Assembly (NCBI GenBank): GCA_026874595.1
Contig: CM049318.1
Coordinates: forward strand, 38,771,956 to 38,835,955
DNA: 64,000 bases
Source: Sipunculus nudus
Taxonomy: Eukaryota; Annelida; Sipuncula; Golfingiida; Sipunculidae
Direction: 5' to 3'
Both the position numbers and the translations under genes were made by a program. The notes beneath the pieces were generated by a model. The model saw only the letters and a list, made by a program, of their open reading frames with translations, did no database searches and was not told the origin of the DNA. Positions 48,501-51,500 of this stretch are shown here, piece by piece; position 1 is the stretch's first letter, and each line of letters begins with the position of its first letter.

Positions 48501-51500
48501 GATTATTAATATACTGCATATGTTAAATGCACGGTAAAGCTAAACTAAATGGTTTGTTTACACTAAGGCAAAATTTAAAATAATTAAATATCTTTATTCT
48601 ATAAATAATAATTTTAATTTCTTTAACTTCATGTTCTCTGAGAGTTGTGTAACAGAAAAGTCATGTCTGTGACCCTATTGTTAGCCCATGGTGTTTGTGA
48701 AAAAATTTGAACAATTTTATATTCATACTCTTAGCTATTTCATATGTTCATGGTTTCCCAGTCAACAAAACAATCTTCAAAACAGATTTTATACTAACCA
48801 AACACTTCAGATGGGTTAAGTAGCTCCAGGAGGATGCCACCCCTTGTGTTCTCATATGTAGCAAATCCCCCGTCATCATTCCTCATGTTCAGCAGCTGAA
48901 ACACACCACAATACAAACTGTGCTTCAGGAATGGAGCTTTGCAATATGATTCATATCACAAGACAATGTATTGTTACATCTCAAGAGTCTACTAGTCCAA
49001 ACATGTGACAGTAAACCATACACTGTGCAGAATCAGACTCATTATTAAACGGTATGCTGGCTAGGGTTTGTGGGCATCAAAATCTACCACCCACAATGCA
49101 CCGCTGCCTCTAAATACACCAATAGTGTAGGTGTACATGTAGTGAAGAGGGTAATGAAGGGTGTTCAAATATGTTGGGTAAGAATTTTTTCAAGGCTAAT
49201 TGCATTAAACAAACGTGTTCTTGTGTTAAGGACTTAAAGAAATAAGTAAAACTTTGTATGCATATGCATGTGAAATGTTAACAGAAGGTGTTTTCCTCGA
49301 AAAGTAACATATTTGATTTTAAAGTTTGACAGTTGAGACAAATAGTCCTGGCTATCCCACAGTGCATATGTGGGACAGGTTCGTTTTGAGTAGAGACCTC
49401 TGGTGTAAGGGTGAGTAAACATACAACACACGTAACATAATATAGCACCATACAAATCCCACTTACCACATCCACAGCTCTGAAGAGGTTTTCCTCGGGG
49501 ATATTCTGTTTCAGGAAGGGACATTTCTTCTGTAACTGCAGCACTGCTTTCAGTCCCTCAGCTGTACAGTCAGCAACAATCCAGCCACAGTCCCGGGTAC
49601 TAAAGGGGAAGCCTCCCTAACACAGACAAGTTAAGAGAGTTTTGTAAGGATCAATCCATGGCCTGCTGGTGGCATGGTCTATTGAATAAGGATGAAGATA
49701 ATAATACAAGACGTGATAATTATTTCAGGTTTTATATGCGTGGGTCTTAGTGCCATTCCGCCCACTGACAGTAGGACAACAGAGAATCCAAAACCAGCAC
49801 ATCTTGCAACCATAAAAGCTCTGTAAGGCTCAATGAGGATACAAATATTTTCCCCCATGGCATGTCACTTGACATACAGTAAACCAGAATGATCATTAGC
49901 TTTTTAGTTTAAGCCTTTGTTTGCTGTTTTATTATATCTGTGGAAGATCCTACAATTAAATAATATTTGGAAAATGAAAACAGATCATCTTAATCTTTTA
50001 AATATGTGATATTCTATATACCTGTCCTTGACAAGAGTTATCTGGAGGCATTTTGTTAATTATCTGTCCTAAAAATTCATTTCATTCTAGATATATATCA
50101 CTTATAAGGTGAAAATCTCTGGGGAACAAGAGCGATCACCTTATTCATGTTTCTGTAGTACTTCATGTACTCTGTGGGGTTGTCTTTGACCTGAGTGATC
50201 TGCAGCCAGTGATGAGCCTTATCCAAACATGTCTCAAACTCCTTGTAGTTCTCTGCGCCACACTGAAGTAAAAAACATAGGAATTTGCACAACACTGAAG
50301 TACAAAACACAGAAAACTGCACCACACTTAAGTAAAAACATAGGAATTTGCACAACACTGAAGTACAAAACACAGAAAACTGTGCCACACTGATGTAAAA
50401 AACACAGGACTTTGCACCACACTGAAGTACAAAACATATGAATCTGCACCACATTGAAGTACAAAACATAGGACCCCAACACCCTCAAGTATATAACATA
50501 GGAAACTACATCACTCAGATGTATAAAACATAGGACTATGCACTACACTAAAGTATAAAATATAAGAAACTGCACCACATTAAAGTATGAACCATTTGTA
50601 TCTGCATCATCAAAAGTACAAAACATAGGACTCTCTACCACACTGTAGTTCAAAACACAGGAATCTGCACCACTCAGATGTATAAAACATAGGAATCTGC
50701 ATCACAGTGAAGTACAAAACCCAGAACCTTGCACTATCACTCTCTGCTAATGCAAACCTGCAGCATATACAGTAATAACATATCAAGTCAAGGTTCCTGT
50801 TTAACCCTGTATAAGGCTGCCAATGGAATTATTATTTAAAAGAATACTGTGAAACATTCAGTATATATGTAGTTTGGTCTTACACTTTACAGACTTACTT
50901 GCAGACAAGTCCTTTGGAAAATAACAGTAATATGTTGTTAAATACTGCATTTATAACTCAAGGAGGAATGGTACAAAATCTGTGAATGACAAATATAATC
51001 ATGCTATAAACTTTTGCATTTAAGCATAAAAATAATATCTTAAAAATATTGTAAACTGTAAAAAGGTCAGATGATTTTGGTTTTTGTTTTTTATTTTCAT
51101 GTGAAATTCAGCTGATATCATAAACAAGAATACCTCAAGCATTGCCTGCACAGCAAAGGTTGTGTCCCATAACTGTGACCCATTGGTTCCCTGAAAATAA
51201 TTTATTATTAAAAAGCAACTGATATTATTTTACTGACACATTTAAATCTTTTAGTCCAACACATTCTTATTTACAAAGACAATTTTGAAATATTTAATGC
51301 TGAGCAATCCACAGAATCTTTCACCTAAAGTCTATTTTTTATCAAATACATTCTGAATAAAATTTAAATGAAGTACATTTCAGTATAAAAAAATTAAGAT
51401 TTTAACAGAATTTTTCAACAGTAAGAAAGAATGAATAGTCATAAAATATAATTACAGTAGAACGCCTGTATTACAGTCACCATCGGGACTGGATGAAAGT

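Follow-up and report, generated by a model that had tools for sequence, protein, structure and literature searches.

When many similar acceptors stand in a row, how does the spliceosome settle on the last one? And how does the border of an exon survive tandem duplication? In human genes, minisatellites containing splice donors are already documented and accompany altered transcripts. A clear case on the acceptor side, with the acceptor of the exon and probably also the branch point inside the array, would open the first question and would also throw light on the second. A candidate of this kind lies on the minus strand of the 64,000-nt stretch of Sipunculus nudus DNA analysed here (the window), where a minisatellite runs through an intron and across the acceptor of an exon of the lanosterol synthase (LSS) gene. 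As a single locus so far, it is an instructive curiosity.

The host gene and its exons

The host gene is probably lanosterol synthase. Five exon segments around the array, joined by eye, give 165 residues that align co-linearly and with no gap to positions 380-544 of human LSS (1W6J/1W6K), with E = 1.8e-79 against 1W6J, and the profile PF13243 matches the joined segment (E 1.8e-12). The exon of interest (50140..50262, minus strand) comprises 41 codons (CGAENYKEF...MNK), with phase 0 at both ends and the donor GTGATC, and its start carries TGTGGCGCAGA. Its neighbours on the same strand are an upstream exon of 19 residues at 51134..51190, with the donor GTATTC, and a downstream exon at 49467..49616 (GGFPFST...FRAVDV). 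On this alignment, 50262 is the productive acceptor of the exon, because joining there carries the 165 residues along human LSS without a gap.

In total, 12 LSS acceptors between 55628 and 42592 were placed by eye, with open frames and AG/GT signals as guides. The located exons represent part of the gene, the others not having been located, and inspection of open frames and signals did not reveal the motif of a further LSS exon expected between 52924 and 51190. With the single exon 50262-50140 as query, Pfam gave two matches, both unrelated and weak (E 0.068 and E 0.16). When the species' own genome was searched with PF13243, four candidates were scored and one matched, and at this sensitivity no second or intronless LSS copy was seen. 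That match was the LSS exon at 46361-46531.

Structure and register of the array

TRF detects the array at 50252-50720 with a period of 32 and 14.8 copies, and assigns it two longer periods as well, 95 and 126. Wrap-around alignment resolves 15 full units of 32 bp and a partial 5' unit (50252..50741, minus strand); the minus-strand consensus from this alignment is TTCCTATGTTTTGTACTTCAGTGTGGTGCAGA. A preliminary description of this DNA had placed the array at 50264..50725, where it is indeed found, running slightly past both ends.

The terminal unit (50252..50283, minus strand) contains the real acceptor of the exon, being made up of the last 21 intron bases and the first 11 exon bases. It differs from the leave-one-out consensus at 2 positions, tying with the units at 50474 and 50442 for the fewest differences among the 15. 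Ten of the first 11 exon bases match the array unit, and over the 32 bases that follow them the match falls to 10/32. The best 11-base match to the unit in the rest of the exon, used as a control (101 starts in 32 registers), is 9/11; taken alone, the 10/11 match would be modest evidence. The overlap between array and exon is more telling, because its register is fixed by the unbroken array, and that such an overlap arose by chance appears very unlikely. The preliminary description had called the array unit nearly the same as the real acceptor and exon start, and had proposed beforehand to see whether this similarity would vanish in a proper alignment. The terminal unit continues the array, and the similarity held under both wrap-around alignment and the 11-base control.

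The 586-bp stretch that includes the array has one match in the species' own genome (1.43 Gb, 153 contigs) in a search that skips simple repeats and common words. Arrays with a period of at least 10 cover 7.9% of the window and 10.3% of the interval 42400-56800, which makes the closeness of an array to an exon unremarkable by itself.

Origin and growth of the array

The simplest history of the array, and a well-supported one, would be growth from the exon border. A 32-bp segment across the LSS intron-exon border would have been duplicated in tandem, with further copies spreading into the intron and the real acceptor remaining in the unit at the end of the row. The preliminary description had already proposed that the array grew from the exon boundary. 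Register and overlap establish that the unit is a copy of the border, whereas the direction, from exon to array, is one that we infer from this species alone.

A terminal unit so near the consensus is as expected if it is ancestral and has been held by both splicing and coding. Divergence from the leave-one-out consensus amounts to 4-9 differences in the eight distal units (50726-50504) and to 2-7 in the six units 50474-50315. In the MAFFT alignment the 15 units form 14 distinct rows, the units 50378-50347 and 50315-50284 being identical, and the unit after 50378-50347 differs from the terminal unit at 4 columns. Because identical units precede the terminal unit and its near copy, the block containing the acceptor probably underwent a recent two-unit duplication (50252..50378, minus strand), the second of the two followers carrying the real acceptor.

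It is unlikely, by comparison, that the array arose in the intron first and that the exon start later acquired the unit from it, either by conversion or through adoption of the array edge as an acceptor. Such a replacement might be tolerated, as the exon-start residues lie in a loop of variable length (10 bacterial relatives returned were shorter there by 2 residues, one by 3), and with the array coverage of this region an array near the exon is not rare. The junction, however, has no length change relative to human LSS, and the second residue of the exon, a glycine, is also present in human LSS (at chain position 400); for the array edge to be adopted exactly, with no indel, more steps would be needed. 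Residue conservation was considered as proof of the direction of growth and set aside, since the bacterial relatives vary in the loop. Coding constraint likewise does not settle the direction, because the exon start codes for this variable-length loop.

Decoy acceptors and their coding outcome

Three TTCAG/TG starts (the slash marks the exon start) occur in the array at 50421, 50357 and 50294, ahead of the real one at 50262. As far as sequence goes, this bears out the several decoy 3' splice sites in a row announced in the preliminary description. Of the decoy positions that it gave, 50293, 50353 and 50419 are slightly off, sitting 1, 4 and 2 bases from the AG starts 50294, 50357 and 50421. 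Around the fourth, 50452, no AG occurs within 4 bases.

Acceptors were scored with a small local model derived from the 11 other LSS acceptors, and its values are indicative only. In this model, decoy 50421 scores 4.7 bits against 3.7 bits for the real site at 50262; compared with 625 other AGs from the LSS region (42601-55600), the decoy stands at the 99.8th percentile. Seven of the 29 array AGs exceed the 90th percentile of those 625, and six score at least as high as the weakest of the other LSS acceptors (-1.6, leave-one-out). With three decoys and these six AGs, the units carry splice-site sequences comparable to real ones by the measure of an 11-site model.

Because the unit is 32 bp long, moving the exon start by one unit shifts the frame. 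Use of the decoy AG at 50296-50295 (50294..50296, minus strand) would start the exon at 50294 and add 32 nt, and that of the AG at 50359-50358 (50357..50359, minus strand) would start it at 50357 and add 95 nt; both would shift the frame and lead to a premature stop. The AG at 50423-50422 would instead give an in-frame, open extension of 53 residues (50263..50421, minus strand), which makes 50421 the only TTCAG/TG decoy, and the only strong AG of the array, that is both in frame and open. The 27 AG starts in the array divide into 14 out of frame, every one of which runs into a stop in the array or exon, nine in frame with a stop, and four in frame and open; a stop before the exon end is therefore met in 23 of the 27. 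When 11 array AGs were carried through the next exons, six shifted the frame and met a stop, one (50547) was in frame with a stop, and the same four stayed open.

Choice of the real acceptor

We consider it likely that the locus results from tandem duplication of the exon border, with splicing normally at 50262, rare and mostly unproductive use of decoys, and an array that is neutral or slightly harmful. The AG-free stretch before 50262 measures 30 nt, and the 12 located LSS acceptors, 50262 included, range from 20 to 52 nt. A published rule for the branch point search takes the AG exclusion zone plus about 15 nt, in the part of the source consulted here (PMC1431707). Under this scanning model the branch point would fall in the last one or two units, that is, inside the array, and with the branch point so placed the array itself would supply acceptor signals.

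Splicing would then normally take place at 50262, while upstream units may serve as decoy acceptors at some low rate. Since most decoy events would give premature stops, they would usually cost the gene a little output through nonsense-mediated decay instead of giving a new protein. For the array itself, a neutral or slightly harmful effect is the likeliest, and its length is expected to vary. The arrangement is probably a genetic accident, because most decoys would break the protein.

Alternative functional readings

A regulatory role is distinctly improbable. In such a role, the upstream acceptors would soak up splicing factors or yield unproductive transcripts, and the length of the array would tune LSS dosage. 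The high-scoring fraction of array AGs and the stops met from 23 of the 27 starts would suit this role, and in ABCA7, as far as the available part of that report goes, altered splicing can accompany differences in the length of an array at a splice site (PMC5954066). The scores, however, come from a model that rests on 11 acceptors, and the decoy AGs give no clear sign of selection. Across the upstream units, 14 in number, the A and the G of the acceptor are each altered three times, where the average column has 2.3 changes (73 in 32 columns); neither column shows above-average conservation. For the units 50474-50315, six in all, the corresponding counts are 0 and 1 with an average of 0.7 (22 in 32 columns), the numbers being very small; the AG is kept in five of these six, which speaks for the preliminary description.

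It has little probability that 50421, together with the weaker 50316, 50379 and 50409, is a functional alternative acceptor producing LSS isoforms with 18 to 53 extra loop residues in a ratio set by array length. The context, rank and frame of 50421 and its score above the real site in the local model speak for such use, and the junction sits where bacterial relatives vary in length. The four open in-frame starts 50316, 50379, 50409 and 50421 would add 18, 39, 49 and 53 residues, respectively, and the first three score between -2.2 and -18.4. The 53-residue insert, however, would be strongly hydrophobic, with a GRAVY of 1.53 where the tested LSS segment has -0.43, and would contain eight cysteines, the two nearer TTCAG/TG decoys are out of frame, and the decoy AG columns lack above-average conservation over the 14 upstream units.

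The open frame itself argues little for a coding function. It extends 74 codons upstream of the exon, to a stop at 50487-50485, in agreement with the more than 60 codons of the preliminary description, and it is expected because the consensus unit contains no TAA, TAG or TGA in any frame. Selection for openness was considered and rejected: plain base shuffling makes an open frame rare (412 of 20,000), but the fitting null, arrays simulated from the consensus with substitutions at the observed rate, leaves 71 codons fully open in 33.7% of 20,000 trials. A second frame is open for 73 codons, as expected if no single frame is under selection. The length-variable N-terminal additions suggested earlier thus keep one good candidate, the in-frame, open and high-scoring 50421, and are weakened by the stops, the hydrophobicity of its insert and the lack of above-average conservation in the A and G columns. 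As a device for protein diversity, the array appears weakly supported.

A stronger version would have the array act as a length-variable acceptor cassette, its units being used in vivo, 50421 giving an LSS isoform with the 53-residue hydrophobic insert, and the number of units setting the share of productive LSS mRNA. We regard this as quite doubtful; if true, sterol synthesis would depend on a fast-mutating minisatellite.

Very improbable is a masking of the decoys by RNA hairpins, one per unit with a stem around a CAG loop, that would leave the real site free: the consensus unit does form a fold of -6.4 kcal/mol whose loop contains CAG, and none of the 15 units is less stable than the terminal one (-1.6 kcal/mol), but the consensus fold has a z of only -1.25, covariation is absent (score 0.087 against a shuffled mean of 0.104), and the most accessible acceptor changes with the allowed span. 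Folding and pair counting led us to reject this reading for want of covariation support. The hairpin cells pair in 78.0% of cases, against 35-58% when slid, and shuffles reach 78.3%. A 301-nt fold has a z of -2.83, with one of 100 shuffles as good, and its stability may stem from the repetition of similar units.

Comparison with known systems

The minisatellite of human IFI6 (also G1P3 or 6-16) sits at an exon border and has a unit of 12 nt; it reportedly contains multiple splice donor sites, as Turri et al. are said to have described in 1995. Two downstream repeat units are used as donors in IFI6 transcripts, according to the portion of a later account consulted (PMC4526556). Intron 18 of ABCA7 contains a 25-bp VNTR that opens with the donor GT of exon 18; as described in the section of the report drawn on here, retention of one unit shifts the frame, and the VNTR varies in length and goes with exon 19 skipping, one-unit retention being unchanged with length (PMC5954066). 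As far as these partial accounts allow a comparison, the LSS array resembles IFI6 in that minisatellite units carry splice sites, and ABCA7 in that the array contains the exon's own splice site and one unit shifts the frame. Both human arrays lie on the donor side, with use shown in RNA for IFI6 and a length effect shown for ABCA7, whereas the LSS array lies on the acceptor side and is known from the sequence of one assembly. On the evidence of its units, the LSS array is an acceptor-side variant outside the donor type proper, since the site repeated in it is the acceptor and not a donor.

A human FAM20C VNTR is said, in one brief description, to cross an intron-exon junction and to affect alternative splicing (PMC5941971). 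On that description, it is like the LSS array in lying across a splice junction. At NAGNAG-like sites, several AG acceptors compete at one exon, in the part of the source consulted (PMC1431707); these acceptors are under about 12 bases apart, whereas the LSS array repeats whole acceptors of 32 bases. Among the matches listed, titles and abstract openings in the open PMC literature yielded no acceptor-side minisatellite of the LSS kind, a thin test that leaves subscription papers mostly outside, and FAM20C may be one.

Other repeats in the window

A bacterial promoter and terminator scan found one site of each, near the shuffled means of 1.4 and 0.5. The LSS gene contains a second minisatellite at 55691-56710, with a period of 27 bp and 37.5 copies, whose near edge lies 62 bases upstream of an LSS acceptor (exon start 55628) and which does not overlap the exon. 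Two long-period arrays, at 14947-15959 and 20901-22217 (280 and 340 bp), both have consensuses containing CAGGTGGCGCCACC. An ACGG/ACAG short-period repeat occupies 63362-63426, where open frames read as Ser-Val-Arg-Pro-like repeats, and a further ACGG array is found at 22219-22277.
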